From Sphingorhabdus sp. M41 (GTDB taxonomy: Bacteria > Pseudomonadota > Alphaproteobacteria > Sphingomonadales > Sphingomonadaceae): a stretch of 64,000 nucleotides of DNA. Where the stretch lies: NCBI RefSeq assembly GCF_001586275.1, contig NZ_CP014545.1, forward strand, positions 3,126,501 to 3,190,500. The letters run 5' to 3'. The notes beneath the pieces were generated by a model. That model made no database searches and was not told the origin of the DNA. It saw nothing but the letters and a program-made list of their open reading frames with translations. Both the position numbers and the translations under genes were made by a program. This document shows positions 49,591 to 57,684 of this stretch, piece after piece (within the stretch, counting starts at the first letter, position 1; each line of letters begins with the position of its first letter).

Positions 49591-50790
49591 ATGAACATTC
49601 ACGAATATCAGGGCAAGGAACTGCTTGCCAAACACGGCATCGCCGTACCCGCCGGCTATGCTGCGCTCACCGTTGAAGATGCGGTCGCCGCAGCCGAAAA
49701 GCTCCCCGGACCGCTCTATGTGGTCAAGGCGCAGATTCATGCGGGCGGACGCGGCAAGGGCAAATATAAGGAACTGGGACCCGACGCCAAAGGCGGCGTT
49801 CGGCTGTCCAAGTCGATCGACGACGTGCGCACCAATGCCGAGGAAATGCTCGGCAATACTCTGGTGACCATCCAGACCGGTGACGAAGGCAAGCAGGTCA
49901 ACCGTCTCTATGTCACCGACGGCGTCGATATCGAGAAAGAATTCTACCTCTCCATGCTGGTCGACCGGGCCAGTGGCCGCGTCGCCATAGTCGTCTCGAC
50001 CGAAGGCGGAATGGACATCGAAGACGTTGCCCATAATACACCGGAAAAAATCAAGACGATCACCATTGATCCGGCCCAGGGTTTCATGCCGCATCATGGC
50101 CGGACCATTGCCTTCGCGCTCGGACTCGACGGCGACCTCAACAAGCAGGCACAGAAGCTCGGCAAGAAACTCTACGACGCGTTCATGGCGATGGATTGCG
50201 AAATGGTCGAGATCAACCCGCTGGTGGTGACCGAAGATCAGCAACTGATCGTGCTCGACACCAAGATGAGCTTTGACGGCAACGCGCTGATGCGCCATCC
50301 CGATATCGCAGCGCTGCGCGACGAAACCGAGGAAGACCCGGCGGAAGTCGAGGCCAGCAAGTCCGACCTCGCCTATATCAAGCTCGACGGCAATATCGGC
50401 TGCATGGTCAATGGTGCCGGCCTGGCGATGGCGACGATGGATATCATCAAGCTCAATGGCGCATTTCCTGCCAACTTCCTCGACGTGGGCGGCGGCGCGA
50501 CCAAGGAAAAGGTTACCGCAGCGTTCAAGATCATCCTCGCCGATCCTGCGGTCGAAGGCATTCTCGTCAACATTTTTGGCGGCATCATGAAATGCGACAT
50601 CATCGCCGAGGGCATCGTTGCCGCGGCCAAGGAAGTCGATCTTTCGGTGCCACTGGTGGTTCGTCTTGAAGGAACCAATGTCGAAAAGGGCAAGGAAATC
50701 CTCGCCAACAGCGGTCTGCCGATCGTGTCGGCCGATGATCTCGGCGATGCTGCTAAAAAGATTGTCGCGCAGGTCAAAGAAGCGGCCTGA
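49591..50790 (+). CDS. sucC: Succinyl-CoA synthetase (ADP-forming) beta subunit
   Basis: A 399-residue ATP-grasp subunit of succinate-CoA ligase in the TCA cycle. It starts [20 protein letters not shown], has the nucleotide lysine region [20 protein letters not shown], and the CoA-side signature [17 protein letters not shown] with [16 protein letters not shown]. The alpha subunit sucD, usually next, is not here; instead etfBA follows after a repeat. The 487-residue open frame on the opposite strand is a shadow. Confidence 0.97.
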
Positions 50791-50808: not shown

Positions 50809-50880
50809 CCGTTCGTGCTGAGCTTGTCGAAGTACGAACCTGCGCGCTCCCTCGTCCTTCGACAGGCTCAGGACGAACGG
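50809..50880. repeat. Interspersed palindromic element, class A, between sucC and etfB
   Basis: Two inverted arms: CCGTTCGTGCTGAGCTTGTC followed by GAAGTACG on the left (50809-50836), and its near-inverse ending GGCTCAGGACGAACGG on the right (50853-50880). The same 72-base structure recurs at 51750 and, inside sufC, at 57025. Such elements are common in sphingomonad genomes. In this place it could form a hairpin in the sucC 3' UTR. Confidence 0.85.
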
Positions 50881-50952: not shown

Positions 50953-50981
50953 GTTAGTGAAATTTGAAAAAGGAAACAGCA

Positions 50982-51728
50982 ATGAAAATCCTGGTGCCCG
51001 TAAAACGGGTCATAGATTATAACGTAAAACCCCGGGTCAAGTCCGACGGCAGCGGCGTCGATCTCGCCAATGTCAAAATGTCGATGAACCCGTTTGACGA
51101 AATCTCGGTTGAAGAAGCCATCCGCCTGAAAGAGGCCGGCAAGGCAGAAGAAATCATCGCTGTATCGGTTGGCCCGCAGAAAGCGCAGGAAACTCTCCGT
51201 ACCGCTCTCGCCATGGGTGCAGACCGCGCGATCCTGGTTGTGACCGACGAAGAAGTCGAACCATTGGCCGTCGCCAAGATCCTTGCGAAGATCGTTGCAG
51301 AAGAAGCACCGCAGCTGGTCATCACCGGCAAGCAGGCAATCGATGACGATTCGAACCAAACCGGCCAGATGCTCGCAGCTCTGCTCGGCTGGGGTCAGGG
51401 TACCTTTGCCAACACCGTCGAACTCGACAGCGACAGCATCACCGTCAAACGCGAAATCGACGGTGGCCTGCAGACGGTCAAGCTGAACCTGCCCGCCGTG
51501 GTCACCACCGACCTGCGCCTCAACGAACCGCGCTATGCATCGCTGCCGAACATCATGAAGGCAAAGAAAAAACCGATGGATGAGAAAACGCCAGCCGATT
51601 ACGGCGTCGACATCAGCCCGCGTCTCACCACCATCACCGTCACCGAGCCCCCGGTTCGCCAGGCCGGTGAAAAGGTCGAAGACGTCGATGCGCTGGTCGC
51701 GAAACTCAAAGCTGTGGGAGCCATTTAA
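50982..51728 (+). CDS. etfB: Electron transfer flavoprotein beta subunit
   Basis: A 248-residue AMP-binding subunit of ETF, which takes electrons from acyl-CoA dehydrogenases to ETF-ubiquinone oxidoreductase. It starts [20 protein letters not shown] and contains [20 protein letters not shown] and the AMP loop [19 protein letters not shown]. The frame begins at 50964, but AAGGAAAC before ATG 50982 fixes the start. etfA follows after a repeat-filled 114-base gap. Confidence 0.96.
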
Positions 51729-51749: not shown

Positions 51750-51813
51750 CGTTCATCCTGAGCTTGTCGAAGGATGGTGGGACAAGGTGCTTCGACAGGC
51801 TCAGCACGAACGG
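51750..51813. repeat. Interspersed palindromic element, class A, between etfB and etfA
   Basis: Left arm CGTTCATCCTGAGCTTGTCG then AAGGATG, right arm GTGCTTCGACAGGCTCAGCA then CGAACGG. It is a second copy of the element at 50809, with a shorter centre. Lying inside the etfBA operon, it places a hairpin between the two subunits and could affect their relative expression. Confidence 0.85.
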
Positions 51814-51842: not shown

Positions 51843-52772
51843 ATGAAAACTCTCGTACTCGTAGAACATGACAACACGAACATGAAAGACGCGACGCTGG
51901 CCGTTGTCACCGCCGCGTCGCAACTGGGCGAAGTCCACGCTCTCGTCATCGGTTCCGGCTGCGCCAGCGTTGCCGAACAGGTTGCCAAGGTCGCCGGCGT
52001 CGCCACCGTCCACGTCGCCGACGATGCCGCGCTCGCCAACCAGCTCGCGGAAAATGCCGCGCCGCTGATCGCCAGCCTGATGGACACGCACGATGCGTTC
52101 CTCGCGCCAGCCACCACCACCGGCAAGAATATCGCCCCGCGCGTCGCAGCCCTGCTCGACGTCATGCAGATCAGCGATATTCTCTCGGTCGAAAGCGAAG
52201 ACACGTTCACCCGGCCAATCTACGCCGGCAACGCGATTGCCACGGTCAAATCGTCGGATGCCAAGAAGATCATCACCGTGCGCGGCACGGCTTTTGACAA
52301 GGCAGCCACCGAAGGCGGCTCCGGCACGATCGAAGCCGTTGGCGGCGCCAGCGACGCTGGCCTGTCCAGCTTCGTCAGCGAGGAAATCGCCAAGTCCGAA
52401 CGCCCCGAACTGACCAGCGCCAAGATCATCGTCTCCGGTGGTCGTGCTCTCGGATCGGGCGAGAAGTTCGAGGAAGTGATCACGCCACTGGCAGACAAGC
52501 TCGGTGCCGGCATCGGTGCCTCGCGCGCTGCGGTCGATGCGGGCTATGTCCCGAACGACTATCAGGTCGGCCAGACCGGCAAGATCGTCGCTCCGGAAGT
52601 CTATATCGCCATCGGCATCTCCGGCGCGATCCAGCATCTCGCCGGCATGAAGGACAGCAAGATCATCGTCGCCATCAACAAGGACGAAGACGCCCCGATT
52701 TTCCAGGTTGCGGATATCGGGCTGGTTGCGGATCTGTTTGATGCGGTTCCGGAACTGACAAGCAAGGTTTAA
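51843..52772 (+). CDS. etfA: Electron transfer flavoprotein alpha subunit
   Basis: A 309-residue FAD-binding subunit of ETF. The C-terminal FAD domain shows [19 protein letters not shown], the [20 protein letters not shown] segment, and the signature [16 protein letters not shown] followed by [20 protein letters not shown]. Start ATG 51843 has GGAG upstream. The electron source and quinone reductase genes are not in the window. Transcription probably ends in the GC hairpin and T-rich run at 52878-52908. Confidence 0.96.
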
Positions 52773-52782
52773 GCACACTTAG

Positions 52783-52899
52783 CCCCTCCTCTTCAGAGGA
52801 GGGGTTGGGGTGGTGTCTATCCTCACCCACAAATTCGGAGACTGGCATCGAGCCAGCCTCCTCATAAACCACCCCTACCCCTCCTTTGAAAAGGAGGGG
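52783..52899. repeat. Paired CCCCTCC...GGAGGGG palindromic element after etfA
   Basis: Two hairpins bracket the element: CCCCTCCTCTTCAGAGGAGG then GG (52783-52804) and CCCCTCCTTTGAAAAGGAGG then GG (52878-52899). The inner flanks TTGGGGTGGTG and CCACCCCTA are also complementary, so the whole can fold as one branched structure. TTTGTTTTT follows the right hairpin, which makes it a plausible etfA terminator. A further small hairpin (CCTTCTCT...AGAGAAGG) lies at about 52927-52951. Confidence 0.75.
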
Positions 52900-52965: not shown

Positions 52966-53063
52966 CGTCATGCTGAACTTGTTTCAGCACCTCGTTAGGC
53001 AAGCGCGATCAGCATGAGATCCTGAGCCGAAGGCCACCCAAGGTAAACAAGTTCAGGATGACG
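52966..53063. repeat. Interspersed palindromic element, class D (CGTCATGCTGAACTTG type)
   Basis: Left arm CGTCATGCTGAACTTGTTTC, right arm AACAAGTTCAGGATGACG, with a roughly 60-base centre containing GATCAGCATGAGATCCTGAG. The arms are near-inverse copies. It abuts the terminator at 53064. The unit resembles repeats common in sphingomonads and is the only copy of this class in the window. Confidence 0.7.
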
Positions 53064-53492: not shown

Positions 53493-53506
53493 TTCATTCT
53501 CCTTCT

Positions 53507-53647
53507 CCCCTCCCGTTTACGGGAGGGGTCGGGGGTGGGATTGTGGATGGCCCGAAAGCTCACTGTAGCCCCACCCAGTTTGGCAGCAGCCTCGTCCCCC
53601 GGACGAGGCCAAGAGCCGCCGAACTCCCCTCCCGCAAGCGGGAGGGG
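53507..53647. repeat. Composite palindromic element between sufT and sufA
   Basis: Hairpins CCCCTCCCGTTTACGGGAGG then GG (53507-53528) and CCCCTCCCGCAAGCGGGAGG then GG (53626-53647) bracket a core with its own hairpin CTCGTCC-CCC-GGACGAG (53591-53607); the inner flanks GGGGGTGGG and CCCCACCC also pair. It fills nearly the whole gap between the two genes and may act as an RNA-stabilising or attenuating structure in the operon message. Confidence 0.8.
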
Positions 53648-53653
53648 AATTGA

Positions 53654-54253
53654 TCACAACATCCCCAGTTCAAGCTTCGCTTCGTCGCTCATCTTCTGCG
53701 GGTCCCATGGCGGGTCCCAGACGAGATTGACTTCGGCGTGGCCGACGCCGGGCACGCTGCCGACTTGCAGCTCTATCTCGCCGGGCATCGATTCGGCGAC
53801 CGGGCAATGCGGCGTGGTCAGGGTCATGGTCACGATCGCGTGATTATCCGCCGTAATCTCGACGCCGTAGATCAGGCCGAGATCATAGATATTCACCGGA
53901 ATTTCCGGATCGAAGATGGATTTCAGCGTATCGATCACCGCTTCGTAGAGATCGCCACCGGCTTCACCGGCCGGTGCCTCGGTCGGTTTCTGCGCCAGAA
54001 AGCCTTCGAGATAATCCTTCTTGCGATTGAGCTTCGCCGCATCGCTTTCCGCTTCGAAAGGCGATGGCGCCATGACGGGTGTCGCTTTGCTGTTCGTGTC
54101 GAGCGTAGTCGAGACACTTTGCTCGCCATCATCCGGTCTCTCGACTTCGCTCGAGACGAACGGAGTGTCCTCGACAGCATCCTCGACTTTCGCCAGTTTC
54201 GGCTTTTCGACCGAATCGACTTCTTCGACCAATATCTTGCGTTCTTCGTTCAT
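53654..54253 (-). CDS. sufT: SUF system DUF59/MIP18 protein SufT
   Basis: A 199-residue protein. The C-terminal DUF59 domain (about 100-199) has the motif VNIYDLGLIYGVEI, MTLTTPHCPVAESMPGEIEL and VNLVWDPPWDPQKMSDEAKL. The first 100 residues are a disordered acidic extension, and residues 31-54 are encoded by a palindromic repeat (54092-54163) that reads through in frame. SufT assists Fe-S maturation. It follows sufS by nine bases. Confidence 0.9.
   Translation of the reverse strand: MNEERKILVEEVDSVEKPKLAKVEDAVEDTPFVSSEVERPDDGEQSVSTTLDTNSKATPVMAPSPFEAESDAAKLNRKKDYLEGFLAQKPTEAPAGEAGGDLYEAVIDTLKSIFDPEIPVNIYDLGLIYGVEITADNHAIVTMTLTTPHCPVAESMPGEIELQVGSVPGVGHAEVNLVWDPPWDPQKMSDEAKLELGML
54092..54163 (-). 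repeat. Class B palindromic element inserted in frame in sufT
   Basis: Inverted arms GTTCGTGTCGAGCGTAGTCG (then AGACAC) at 54092-54117 and CTCTCGACTTCGCTCGAGAC (then GAACGG) ending at 54163. The unit is 72 bases, exactly 24 codons, and encodes PF-V-SSEVE-R-P then SVSTTLDTN. The same unit, read in the same frame, lies in sufS. Confidence 0.9.
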
Positions 54254-54262
54254 ATCGTCACC

Positions 54263-55552
54263 TTACCCGAAAATCTTTCTGACCCGATTGATGCCGTCCA
54301 CCAGAGCGGCGACATCCCTGTCATCACTGTAAATCCCGAAACTCGCCCGCGCCGTTGCTGCTACACCGAGATAGTCCATCAGCGGCTGCGCGCAATGATG
54401 GCCGGCGCGGATCGCAACCCCGCCTTCATCCAATATAGTGGCGACATCATGCGGATGCACGTCGCCGACCGCGAAACTCAAAATTCCCATGCTCTTGTCC
54501 GGACCAAAGACCCGTACCGAGTTGATCCCGGACAAGGCTTCCCGCGCCTTGGCCAAGGTCGCATTTTCATGATCCGAAATCACGTCGAGACCGATGCCCT
54601 CGACATATTGGATCGCGGCATCCAGCCCGACCACGCCGACGATATGCGGCGTCCCCGCTTCAAAGCGGCCCGGCGGCGGCGCGTAGGTCGTGCCGTCAAA
54701 AGACACGCGGTCGATCATCGACCCGCCACCCTTCCAGGGCGGCATGGCTTCGAGCGTCGCATAAGGCGCCCATAGAGCCCCGATGCCGGTCGGCCCGTAA
54801 ATCTTGTGCCCCGAAAAGACGTAAAAATCGCAACCGAGATCCTGTACATCGACGGGCAGACGCGGCGCGGCCTGACAGCCGTCGAGCAACAGCTTCGCGC
54901 CAACCTTGTGCGCGATGGCCGCCGCCCGTTTACCGTCGAGCAAGGACCCGAGCACGTTGGAAACATGGGCCAGCGCGACCAGCTTATGCTGTTCGGTCAG
55001 ATGCGCTTCGATCCAGTCGAGATCAATCTGGCCATCCTCGGTCAGCGGCGCGACATCGATATGCGCGCCGACCCGCTCGGCCAGCATCTGCCACGGCACG
55101 ATATTCGAATGATGCTCAAGCTGCGACAGCATGATGCGGTCGCCCTGCCCGACAAATTTGTTGCCCCAGCTTTCGGCGACCAGATTGATACTGTCCGTCG
55201 CGCCGCTGGTGAAGACGATTTCATTTTCGGATGCAGCGCCGAGAAAACCGGCAACGCGTTTGCGCGCGGCTTCATAGGCCAAAGTCATATTGGCGGACCG
55301 GGCATAGACGCCGCGGTGGACGGTGGCATAATCCGGGCCGTAGGCGCGGGCGATGGCGTCCAGAACCGCCTTGGGTTTCTGTGCGGTGGCGGCGGAGTCG
55401 AGATAGTGCCAGTCAGCGGCTATGCCGGGGAAGTCCGCCCGATAAGATGGTGCAACACCGTTCGTGTCGAGCGCAGTCGAGACACCGCTATCGGCCACAA
55501 CCGGCTTCTCGACTTCGCTCGAAGCGAACGGAAGAGAGCTGCTCTGGCTCAC
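54263..55552 (-). CDS. sufS: Cysteine desulfurase SufS
   Basis: A 429-residue PLP enzyme that removes sulfur from cysteine for cluster assembly. The PLP lysine is in VFSGHKIYGPTGIGALW and the persulfide cysteine in IRAGHHCAQPLMDYLG. Residues 8-32 are encoded by a palindromic element (55458-55531), so the conserved domain begins only at YRADFPGIAADWHYLDSAAT. The start is GTG 55552, overlapping the sufD stop (GTGA). SufE, the usual partner, is not in the window. Confidence 0.95.
   Translation of the reverse strand: MSQSSSLPFASSEVEKPVVADSGVSTALDTNGVAPSYRADFPGIAADWHYLDSAATAQKPKAVLDAIARAYGPDYATVHRGVYARSANMTLAYEAARKRVAGFLGAASENEIVFTSGATDSINLVAESWGNKFVGQGDRIMLSQLEHHSNIVPWQMLAERVGAHIDVAPLTEDGQIDLDWIEAHLTEQHKLVALAHVSNVLGSLLDGKRAAAIAHKVGAKLLLDGCQAAPRLPVDVQDLGCDFYVFSGHKIYGPTGIGALWAPYATLEAMPPWKGGGSMIDRVSFDGTTYAPPPGRFEAGTPHIVGVVGLDAAIQYVEGIGLDVISDHENATLAKAREALSGINSVRVFGPDKSMGILSFAVGDVHPHDVATILDEGGVAIRAGHHCAQPLMDYLGVAATARASFGIYSDDRDVAALVDGINRVRKIFG
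55458..55531 (-). repeat. Class B palindromic element inserted in frame at the sufS N-terminus
   Basis: Left arm CCGTTCGTGTCGAGCGCAGT then CGAGACACC, right arm CTTCTCGACTTCGCTCGAAG then CGAACGG. It encodes PF-A-SSEVE-K-P and VSTALDTN, the same frame and orientation as in sufT. The frame of sufS is preserved through it. Confidence 0.9.
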
Positions 55553-56301
55553 GACAAAGCCTCCAACACCTCAAGCGCCTTGCCTTCGATCGCGTCCCGC
55601 ACCGCATCATCATCAACCGAAACAAAAGCATCGGCAATAAACGCCTGCAGCATCAATTTCTTCGCCAGCGCCGGCGGCAGGCCGCGCGAGGCGAGGTAGA
55701 AAAGCGCCTGCTTGTCGAGTTCACCGACGGTCGCGCCATGGGCGCATTTCACATCATCGGCGAAAATTTCCAACTCGGGCTTGGCGTTCGCGGTCGCACC
55801 GCGATCGAGCAGCATCGATTTGACCGACTGCGCCGCATCGGTTTTCTGCGCGTGGCGGGCCACGTTGATGCTGCCGAGGAAGCTTCCGGTCGCCGTGTCC
55901 GCCAGTACCGAGCGCACCACCTGGTTGGAGGTCGCATTGGGCTCGGCGTGGATCGTCTCGGTGACGATTTCCAGCGTCTGCTTGCCCGACCCGAGAATCG
56001 CGCCACCCAGTTCAAAATGCGAGCCATTGCCAAGCGTTGCCTTGACCTGAATCCGGCCATAGTCGGCATTGTGCGCCAGCACATGGATATTGAACGTCGC
56101 CTTGTCGCCAATGGTGACATCAAGATCGATCACGCCAACGCCGTCGATCACCGGCAATTCGGAAATCTGGCGAGAGACAGTTTCGCCCGCAGGCACGTTG
56201 ATTTTCTCGGGGCCGTCTAGCTTCGCCCAGACGGTTTCGAGCGCCTTGAGATCAGCATAACGCCAAGCCTCGTCACGACGCGTAGGAAGCGGAGCGTTCA
56301 T
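55549..56301 (-). CDS. sufD: Fe-S cluster assembly protein SufD
   Basis: A 250-residue SufD, shorter than typical enterobacterial SufD (about 420) but like alphaproteobacterial forms. It opens PTRRDEAWRYADLKALETVW, and the parallel beta-helix C-terminal region shows VKCAHGATVGELDKQALFYL then ASRGLPPALAKKLMLQAF. It forms the SufBCD scaffold with SufB and SufC. The stop overlaps sufS; a repeat separates it from sufC. Confidence 0.94.
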   Translation of the reverse strand: MNAPLPTRRDEAWRYADLKALETVWAKLDGPEKINVPAGETVSRQISELPVIDGVGVIDLDVTIGDKATFNIHVLAHNADYGRIQVKATLGNGSHFELGGAILGSGKQTLEIVTETIHAEPNATSNQVVRSVLADTATGSFLGSINVARHAQKTDAAQSVKSMLLDRGATANAKPELEIFADDVKCAHGATVGELDKQALFYLASRGLPPALAKKLMLQAFIADAFVSVDDDAVRDAIEGKALEVLEALS

Positions 56302-56309
56302 ATCATTTT

Positions 56310-56433
56310 CCTCCCTGTGCCGAAGGCATGGGGAGGGGGACCATGCGAAGCATGGTGGAGGGGTAATGCGCGAACCGCCCCTCCGTCACGCCTGCGGCGT
56401 GCCACCTCCCCATGTCCTGCGGACACGGGGAGG
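56310..56433. repeat. Composite palindromic element between sufC and sufD
   Basis: Blocks CCTCCCTGTGCCGAAGGCAT then GGGGAGG at the left, CCATGCGAAGCATGG next, CACGCCTGCGGCGTG on the right, and CCTCCCCATGTCCTGCGGAC then ACGGGGAGG at the end. All are hairpin-forming. It fills most of the 151-base gap between sufD and sufC and would structure that part of the operon message. Confidence 0.8.
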
Positions 56434-56452
56434 AAAGAGTTAGCGCACAACA

Positions 56453-57289
56453 TCATGCCGCCTCCGCGATCGCTTCATAGCCTTCATTCTCAAGCTGCAG
56501 CGCCAGTTCCGGCCCGCCGGTCTTCACAATCCGGCCGTTCGCCAGAACATGGACAAAATCCGGCTTCACTTCGTCGAGCAAGCGTTGGTAATGGGTGATC
56601 AGCAATACCGCTTTGTCCGACTTGCGCATGATCGCGTTGATGCCCGATCCAACGGTCCGCAGCGCGTCGATGTCGAGGCCGCTGTCGGTCTCGTCGAGGA
56701 TCGCCAGCCTGGGGTTGAGAATGCCCATCTGCACCATCTCATTGCGCTTCTTCTCGCCGCCAGAAAAGCCGACATTGACCGCCCGTTTAAGCATATCCAT
56801 GTCCATCTTCAGCAGCTCCGCCTTTTCCTTGGCCAGCTTGATGAACTCCGCGCCATTGAGCGCTTCTTCACCGCGCGCCAGCCGCTGCGCATTCAGGCTC
56901 TCGCGCAGAAATTGCAGGTTGGACACGCCGGGAATTTCGACCGGATATTGGAAGCCGAGGAAAATACCCGCGGCAGCCCGCTCGTGCGGATCGAGGGCGA
57001 GCAAATCCACCGTTTCGCCTTCTCCCGTTCGTGCTGAGCTTGTCGAAGCACCTCTCTCCTCCGCACCCGGTCCTTCGACAGGCTCAGGACGAACGGATGG
57101 CGTAAAGCTAACACTGCCAGCAGTCACTTCATAACCGGGCCGTCCGCCCAGCGCATAGGCCAGCGTCGACTTGCCCGCCCCATTGGGTCCCATGATCGCA
57201 TGGATTTCGCCCGCGTTGAGCGTGAGCGAAAGCCCCTTGAGGATTTCGGTATCGCCGACTGTGGCGTGGAGGTTTTCAATTTTTAGCAT
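56453..57289 (-). CDS. sufC: SUF Fe-S assembly ATPase SufC (with repeat-encoded insertion)
   Basis: A 278-residue ABC-type ATPase of SufBCD, about 28 residues longer than usual (about 250). Walker A is GPNGAGKST (34-42), Q-loop Gln114 in GFQYPVEIPG, signature FSGGEKKRNE (175-184) and Walker B LAILDETDSG. The extra residues (about 65-89, [15 protein letters not shown] and [11 protein letters not shown]) are encoded by a class A palindromic element at 57025-57096 and lie between the SVSF strand and DLLALDPHERAAAG. Catalytic motifs are intact. Confidence 0.95.
   Translation of the reverse strand: MLKIENLHATVGDTEILKGLSLTLNAGEIHAIMGPNGAGKSTLAYALGGRPGYEVTAGSVSFTPSVRPEPVEGPGAEERGASTSSARTGEGETVDLLALDPHERAAAGIFLGFQYPVEIPGVSNLQFLRESLNAQRLARGEEALNGAEFIKLAKEKAELLKMDMDMLKRAVNVGFSGGEKKRNEMVQMGILNPRLAILDETDSGLDIDALRTVGSGINAIMRKSDKAVLLITHYQRLLDEVKPDFVHVLANGRIVKTGGPELALQLENEGYEAIAEAA
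57025..57096 (-). repeat. Class A palindromic element inserted in frame in sufC
   Basis: Left arm CCGTTCGTGCTGAGCTTGTC then GAAGCACC (57025-57052), right arm GGTCCTTCGACAGGCTCAGG then ACGAACGG (57069-57096). It is 72 bases, 24 codons, with no stop in the sufC frame. Same family as the intergenic copies at 50809 and 51750. Confidence 0.92.
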
Positions 57290-57680
57290 TAAACGCTTTC
57301 CGAATTTGGTATTGAGAACAAGGCGGCCATGGAAGCTCCGAATTCAGCAACGATCGCGCTAGAAACCACCGCAATCCCTAAGGCATCAAGACTACCGCCG
57401 GGAAAATGAGCCAGTGCAAATGCTACTGAAAACAACGCTGCACAGCCAAGAACCAGTCGAAGTGTGACTCGAGACATTCCTGGGTGTTGGACATGCCCCA
57501 GCCATCGACCCGGCTTGGTCATAAATGCAACCAAACCGTAAGCCCCCGCAAAATTGACGCAGATGAGCAATGCTACAATTGAACTTTCGGTTTCTCGAAA
57601 GATCAAAAAAACAACCAATAATGGAGCCAAAAGCATTGCCAGCAGCAAATGCTGTCTTCCTAGCCTTTGAAGAGGACTAC

Positions 57681-57684
<4 letters not shown>
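57289..57684 (-). CDS. Four-helix membrane protein of unknown function inside the SUF operon
   Basis: A 131-residue protein with four hydrophobic segments ([77 protein letters not shown]). Start GTG 57684 overlaps the sufB stop (GTGA), and its TAA overlaps the sufC ATG (TAATG), so it is translationally coupled on both sides. I know no SUF component like it. My hand count over 57301-57660 is 178/360 (49%) G+C, against about 62% in adjacent sufB, which suggests insertion or transfer. Confidence 0.8.

Follow-up and report, generated by a model that had tools for sequence, protein, structure and literature searches.

REPIN-like palindromic dimers encode segments of SufT, SufS and SufC in Sphingorhabdus sp. 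M41 and probably survive in genes only at tolerant sites

The sufT and sufS genes of Sphingorhabdus sp. M41 each contain a palindromic DNA segment that is read into the protein in the same frame and orientation. This raises the question of whether such a repeat spreads from gene to gene as a coding cassette, or whether only the in-frame copies survive. We addressed it in the window (the whole stretch of 64,000 nucleotides analysed here, positions 3,126,501 to 3,190,500 of NZ_CP014545.1), in the rest of the closed genome (3,339,521 bp) and in related genomes. The features concerned are the following, in window coordinates.

53654-54253, minus strand: sufT, 199 aa, FeS_assembly_P/DUF59 protein
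about 54091-54164, minus strand: family-B dimer inside sufT, coding for SufT residues 31-54
54263-55552, minus strand: sufS, 429 aa, class-V aminotransferase, GTG start
about 55459-55532, minus strand: family-B dimer inside sufS, coding for SufS residues 8-32 and starting 18 nt past the sufD stop
55550-55564, minus strand: sufS GTG start (55550-55552), overlapping the sufD stop as GTGA, with GGAGG at 55560-55564, 7 nt upstream
55549-56301, minus strand: sufD
56453-57289, minus strand: sufC, 278 aa, ABC ATPase
57026-57095, minus strand: family-A dimer inside sufC, loop residues 67-89
50810-50879, strand not assigned: intergenic family-A dimer between plus-strand ORFs 49591-50790 and 50964-51728
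51750-51812, strand not assigned: intergenic family-A dimer between plus-strand ORFs 50964-51728 and 51843-52772

The sufT and sufS copies are direct repeats with 81% identity across 73 nt, and each is predicted to fold into one long hairpin on either strand (-37 to -46 kcal/mol). In identical orientation and frame, they encode PFVSSEVERPDDGEQSVSTTLDTN (SufT 31-54) and PFASSEVEKPVVADSGVSTALDTNG (SufS 8-32). The original prediction that copies of one repeat encode both segments was thus borne out, as was its claim that three suf genes carry repeat-encoded segments (sufT and sufS, family B; sufC, family A). Further palindromic-looking intergenic repeats of several types lie around the operon (window 52783-52899, 52966-53062, 53505-53640 and 56310-56440), and one such repeat near the operon was judged by eye to be of the CGTC type. 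A 131-residue ORF with no assigned function is located between sufB and sufC (window 57289-57684). The SufS core is 94% identical to that of a Parasphingorhabdus MAG, and plasmid sequences queried with a 2-kb segment of the region returned no match.

Exact patterns for the family-A arm and the family-B core matched the 3.34-Mb genome 66 and 37 times, respectively; because the backward patterns gave 0 matches each, these are not chance occurrences. A census of the window and 47 stretches round pattern matches (360,547 bases; arms with up to 4 mismatches) yielded 156 arm matches versus 2 for backward patterns. They form 45 A dimers and 20 B dimers (65 together) and leave 23 single arms, counts that may miss copies far from the exact patterns on which the census was built. 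A dimer consists of two imperfect hairpins arranged head to head over about 70 nt (about 72 nt in B), and folds into one long hairpin. Covariation analysis found 22 doubly changed stem cells in B and 37 in A, numbers that 0 of 500 shuffles reached, and stem covariation scores of 0.48 (B) and 0.49 (A) versus at most 0.16 in slid controls. The plan is common to both families, the paired stem bases differ and the B loop has one more base; A and B thus appear to be stem variants, or sisters, of one family of REPIN-like, non-autonomous elements. The predicted 'second class' of repeat is a stem variant of the first class. The whole dimer is evidently the copied unit, since near-identical copies have the spacer in common. 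For the sufS copy, the nearest copies at other sites are intergenic, a group represented by 1273112-1273183 of the same genome (score up to 68/72). Of 32 genomes of the genus, 16 carry exact B dimers, between 1 and 13 each.

Several known systems resemble these elements. CGTC-tagged REPs (Di Nocera et al. 2013, PMC3733652) are described as alphaproteobacterial hairpin repeats, mainly head-to-head dimers, seemingly without a dedicated transposase, with a terminal CGTC, TGTC or CCTC tag, A-T pairs at the stem base and a CCA tail; their hosts include 'S. alaskensis' and 'E. lithoralis'. Some are intragenic and encode 20-30 residues (DNA ligase, uvrA, tRNA synthetases, truB), and within one gene category they are reported at different sites, two recB excepted. 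Our elements are likewise head-to-head alphaproteobacterial dimers without a transposase of their own. By comparison with the text description only, they differ in a CGTTC tag (arms CGTTCG) and in first stem pairs that are T-A or C-G, and here several families occupy exact common sites, unlike the different sites described there save two recB. Rickettsia palindromic elements (PMC2229807, PMC10969869) also lie in frame in many unrelated protein genes. The likeness is in-frame insertion into conserved protein genes; by those accounts they measure 105-146 bp or about 150 bp, whereas the present units are about 70 nt and mostly intergenic. REPINs are described as mainly extragenic REP doublets in inverted arrangement, each folding into one hairpin and copied as a whole, with a link to RAYTs (Bertels and Rainey 2011, PMC3116915). 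We found such a copied unit of two inverted hairpins and a spacer (65 dimers versus 23 single arms, and covariation), but not the RAYT gene flanked by REPs that belongs to that description. Small non-autonomous repeats such as ERIC and Correia are likewise read as protein in MITE-ORF fusions, as far as PMC2229807 describes them, but those units are larger (about 100-200 bp) and come with target duplications. When empty and filled SufT and SufC alleles were compared by eye, no clear target duplication was seen between their diverged flanks. The papers searched contained neither the repeat core sequences, nor a RAYT/REPIN report for Sphingomonas, nor a report of unrelated families at one exact protein site, although some of our sites may be in the supplements of PMC3733652 that list intragenic REPs. 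The intragenic palindrome as a kind is known; several unrelated families at exact sites in close relatives are new as far as we found.

A search for a mover gave a mixed picture. The Y1 profile (PF01797) had no match in the M41 genome, compared with matches in 5 of 14 control genomes. Within the genus, matches were found in 10 of 16 B-bearing and 3 of 16 B-free genomes (Fisher p=0.03, kinship ignored), leaving 6 of the 16 B-bearing genomes without one. None of seven loci with weaker, RAYT-like matches had A or B on both sides; two of them (L217 and L218) have a variant of A on one side, at a distance of 370-460 nt. A Y1 enzyme elsewhere in the genus may yet be linked to the repeats.

How do the proteins accommodate the repeats? 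Among 27 SufT alleles of the genus, 6 have the full insert, 1 has half of it (L014) and 20 are empty. The flanks are conserved on both sides and the frame is open in every allele. The proposal that only in-frame copies survive fits the data. In the sufT genes of L014 and L087, half a B dimer is left (DDSEQDVSTTLDTNG), as though an internal in-frame deletion had occurred. The SufC stretch between two motifs is 31 residues long in 63 of 67 parsed loci (105 were tried; the rest were mostly short of sufC or lacked a motif match) and in 20 of 28 genomes of the genus (30 fetched, 2 unparsed), and here too the insert is internal and its flanks are conserved. AlphaFold2 gave pLDDT below 50 for SufS 1-33 and SufC 67-89, against whole-protein means of 85 and 86. 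On these models the inserted stretches of SufS and SufC are probably floppy or disordered, and those of the other proteins probably are as well.

The SufS insert is N-terminal, and the original prediction had named start-site choice as a possible artefact. Because the SufT and SufC inserts are internal with conserved flanks, such an artefact does not apply to them. That the true sufS start lies inside or past the repeat may be thought from a GTG with a 3/5 SD match within the M41 sufS insert, and from L013-L015, where an ATG follows a repeat in the sufD|sufS junction. However, the annotated start overlaps the sufD stop as GTGA and is preceded by a 5/5 GGAGG at 7 nt, and there is no in-frame start between the insert and the SufS core. 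Of 97 measured loci, 75 offer a start at -4 to the sufD stop and a further 4 offer one at -1; every one of the 79 junctions in frame with the overlap has a start at one of these positions. The junction is out of frame with a relocated start in 17 loci, and one locus was mis-measured. We regard a misplaced sufS start as very unlikely.

Genes were called with a simple codon-usage caller, by which 87% of the sampled DNA was coding. Of the M41 dimers, 8 of 20 in family B and 3 of 45 in family A are contained entirely within genes (Fisher p=0.0022), and 2 A dimers overlap a gene end. With 87% of the DNA coding, these low numbers mean that both families avoid genes, A more so than B. An ORF around 2743420 of the M41 genome with two repeats inside was rejected as spurious; it has no Pfam match, the related stretches L176, L184 and L196 were called intergenic, and its two copies were recounted as intergenic. 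In the stretches fetched from the genus, 37 B dimers were called intergenic and 18 in-gene among the matches listed, with orthologous copies counted apart; these numbers exclude the copies in sufS and sufT as well as two located next to sufT, and one in-gene dimer falls in a questionable ORF of 52 aa. For 70 intergenic elements both neighbours were visible: 50 are flanked by co-directional genes, 14 by convergent and 6 by divergent ones. The 50/70 is no enrichment, because all gaps (n=265) comprise 184 co-directional, 39 convergent and 42 divergent ones. Between co-directional genes, the element lies a median of 23 nt past the upstream stop, and within 32 nt in 33 of 50 cases. Of the six reading frames, 83% are open in unique intergenic B copies (n=49) versus 53% in A copies (n=52), and family A has a TGA in one frame of the first arm.

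In-frame palindromic inserts were found in SufC, SufS, SufT, LigA, GlyS, UvrA, TrmD, TruB, CarA, a BioB-like protein, a TrpE-like protein and a terminase (gene names from Pfam). The distinct in-gene B sites of the genus, 12 in number, use the following frames (first arm, second arm).

SufT: 1,1
SufS: 1,1
BioB-like: 1,1
UvrA: 1,1
CarA: 1,1
LigA site 1: 0,1
LigA site 2: 0,1
TrmD: 0,1
GlyS site a: 2,1
GlyS site b: 1,0
TruB: 2,1
terminase: 2,2

First-arm frames 0, 1 and 2 occur at 3, 6 and 3 sites, and second-arm frames at 1, 10 and 1 (p=0.0005, one-sided, uncorrected and chosen post hoc). The second-arm preference is not due to stops, because for any second-arm frame a fraction of 0.81-0.84 of the intergenic B copies is open. 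Translation in frame 1 gives acidic peptides without Cys, whereas frame 0 gives peptides with a charge of about +3.5 and second-arm frame 2 a mean of 0.8 Cys; selection on the encoded peptide may shape frame use. These counts do not support spread in one coding frame, as one reading of the original prediction had it, but the second arm shows a weaker preference (10/12). In the nearest-copy test (flanks masked; labels by hand for L129, L199, L253, L211 and L233), the nearest copy was itself in a gene for 3 of the 12 B sites (permutation mean 4.15, p=0.78) and for 2 of 4 A sites (p=0.05, too few to judge). In-gene B copies, by their sequence relationships, appear to have no lineage of their own. 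In UvrA, a cluster of about 55 codons comprises two single A arms and a short B dimer (L130:2761-2920; own genome 2757760-2757920).

The suf sites were compared across relatives; the repeat-type letters C, D, E, P and F are our own labels, and F may belong with C. For the sufD|sufS site, 83 junctions (4 from species seen twice) were compared with all collected DNA. Empty junctions are 62-89 nt long and show a few weak matches at most, whereas those with repeat matches that are in frame with the overlap start measure 110-200 nt. The latter carry B in one Parasphingorhabdus group, L057 and L096; A in L016, with L103 resembling a hybrid; C in L017, L035, L037 and L095, and part of it in L053; D in L018 and L019; and another type in L088. 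Nine of 16 out-of-frame junctions have copies elsewhere (L013-L015, L021, L043, L046, L048, L055 and L067), and the other 7 have none or only weak ones. The same is true of ten more long in-frame junctions (101-152 nt, one species per count), so not every long sufD|sufS junction is shown to be a repeat. The peptide RWENEGG recurs in the SufS N-terminus of L024, L028, L033 and L077, encoded by DNA without copies in the collected DNA. A folding-energy scan of the suf loci was abandoned for ranking junctions, as 12% of windows fell under -34 kcal/mol and this background was too high.

With a library of M41 copies outside suf only, and with many loci lacking a full sufC, matches were obtained at SufD|SufS in 24/89 (15 as junction, 9 counted within SufS), SufC|SufD in 13/88, SufT|ErpA in 17/90 and SufB|SufC in 7/57. 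SufS|SufT is also a junction but had 0/90, so position after a stop alone is not sufficient. Within genes there were matches in SufT (7/90, one group), SufB (1/57) and SufC (1/88), and none in SufD (0/89) or ErpA (0/90). SufD|SufS is thus the most matched junction but not a unique one; being coding is what distinguishes it.

In the genus, the SufC loop holds A in one version in G000, G007, G008 and G011, in two others in G006 and G009, and C in G010 and G022; in other genera, L041 has A, L056 and L066 have other repeats and L096 has a short scar-like stretch. At LigA site 1 (27 of 30 fetched parsed), 12 alleles have 9 residues, and the others are filled with B (5), A (2), E (3), P (3) or F (2). 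DNA of the A and B inserts was found at 89-110 places outside its own gene, that of C and F at 42-49, that of the L056 and L066 repeats at 12 and that of E and P at 2-8; the 15 neighbouring control stretches each gave 0. Orthologous places were counted apart here, and the compared DNA is biased to A and B. Mapped on the rpoB tree, the sites require at least 14 (sufS) and 8 (sufC) state changes over 28 species each, 4 (sufT) over 27 and 9 (LigA) over 26, counts that allele exchange between species could inflate. Within one genus, the SufC loop, LigA loop and SufS N-terminus are each either empty or filled with one of several repeat types, and other genera repeat the SufC and SufS sites. The ligA of G003 (L309) has a C-like repeat at LigA site 1 that brings stops into the ligA frame. 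In this single-contig genome, the only ligase adenylation-domain matches are the two ligA halves. Either the sequence is wrong at a G/C run, or the gene is truly split and goes against the tolerance rule.

Taken jointly, these data are probably best explained by REPIN-like dimers that are mostly intergenic and survive in genes only at tolerant sites, their frame being set by tolerance and not by a cassette. The dimers would settle mainly between genes, shortly past an upstream stop, and in-gene copies would persist where a disordered stretch of about 24 residues does no harm, as the models suggest for SufS and SufC and as may hold for tails and surface loops in the rest. The more frequent open frames of B, and the TGA in the first arm of A, would make B commoner in genes than A. 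The sufS copy would be an ordinary gene-junction insertion, coding because sufS starts upstream of it, overlapping the sufD stop; in some relatives stop-bearing repeats lie ahead of a relocated start at this junction. The common frame of sufS and sufT would then reflect tolerance of an acidic, Ser/Thr-rich, Cys-free reading. The originally proposed spread of the B unit from gene to gene as a translated one-frame module draws on the 1,1 frames of the SufT, SufS, BioB, UvrA and CarA copies, on the same peptide frame in the SufS copies of L057 (Sphingobium) and L096 (Sphingopyxis granuli), and on SufC and LigA A copies whose nearest copies are in-gene and in the same frame. But all three first-arm frames are in use, the nearest copy is intergenic for 9 of 12 in-gene B sites, and genes are avoided, 12 of the 20 M41 B dimers being intergenic; we consider such a cassette very unlikely. 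Control of suf expression by RNA hairpins, with the peptides as by-products, could call upon the strong hairpins predicted for the transcripts and the few copies between divergent genes (6/70 versus 42/265 gaps), but close relatives differ irregularly in whether the suf sites are filled (no fewer than 14, 8 and 4 changes for sufS, sufC and sufT), and unrelated genes carry the A and B repeats too. We give it a very small probability.

A further possibility is that palindromes replace a resident one in place, by recombination or by adjacent insertion and loss of the old copy. Unrelated repeats have identical boundaries at the SufC, LigA and SufS sites of one genus; in a 13-species clade none of 11 species with data has an empty LigA loop, despite B, A, E and P types; and where empty SufC alleles read (D/N)G, the filled ones share FT(P/T), or FNP in the case of L066. 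Independent insertion at the sole tolerant positions, combined with interspecies allele exchange, fits these data equally, however, and the A-A-B cluster of UvrA shows accumulation. A comparison of sufC flanks for allele exchange was too noisy beyond 150 nt. Replacement in place is rather unlikely in our estimate, and its specific form, in which the LigA and SufC loops and the SufS N-terminus are docking sites for in-frame exchange among palindrome families in species 5-11% apart (rpoB region), is a doubtful one; if true, an exchange process would act on palindromes in coding DNA, beyond tolerance of rare insertions.

Known in-frame palindromes in genes were scattered oddities. In the present set, a given site of a protein can be followed through about 30 related species, where it is seen empty or filled with unrelated repeats, in frame or, in one case, out of it. 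This makes it testable whether mobile-DNA insertion into core genes is limited by target choice or by tolerance, and whether inserts serve as neutral raw material for disordered protein segments. For annotators, it means that some sphingomonad SufS, SufC and LigA proteins carry repeat-derived stretches. A phage-type terminase large subunit gene (L132:4492-5880; own genome around 2909491-2910879) also contains a B dimer, so B is present in phage-like DNA as well.
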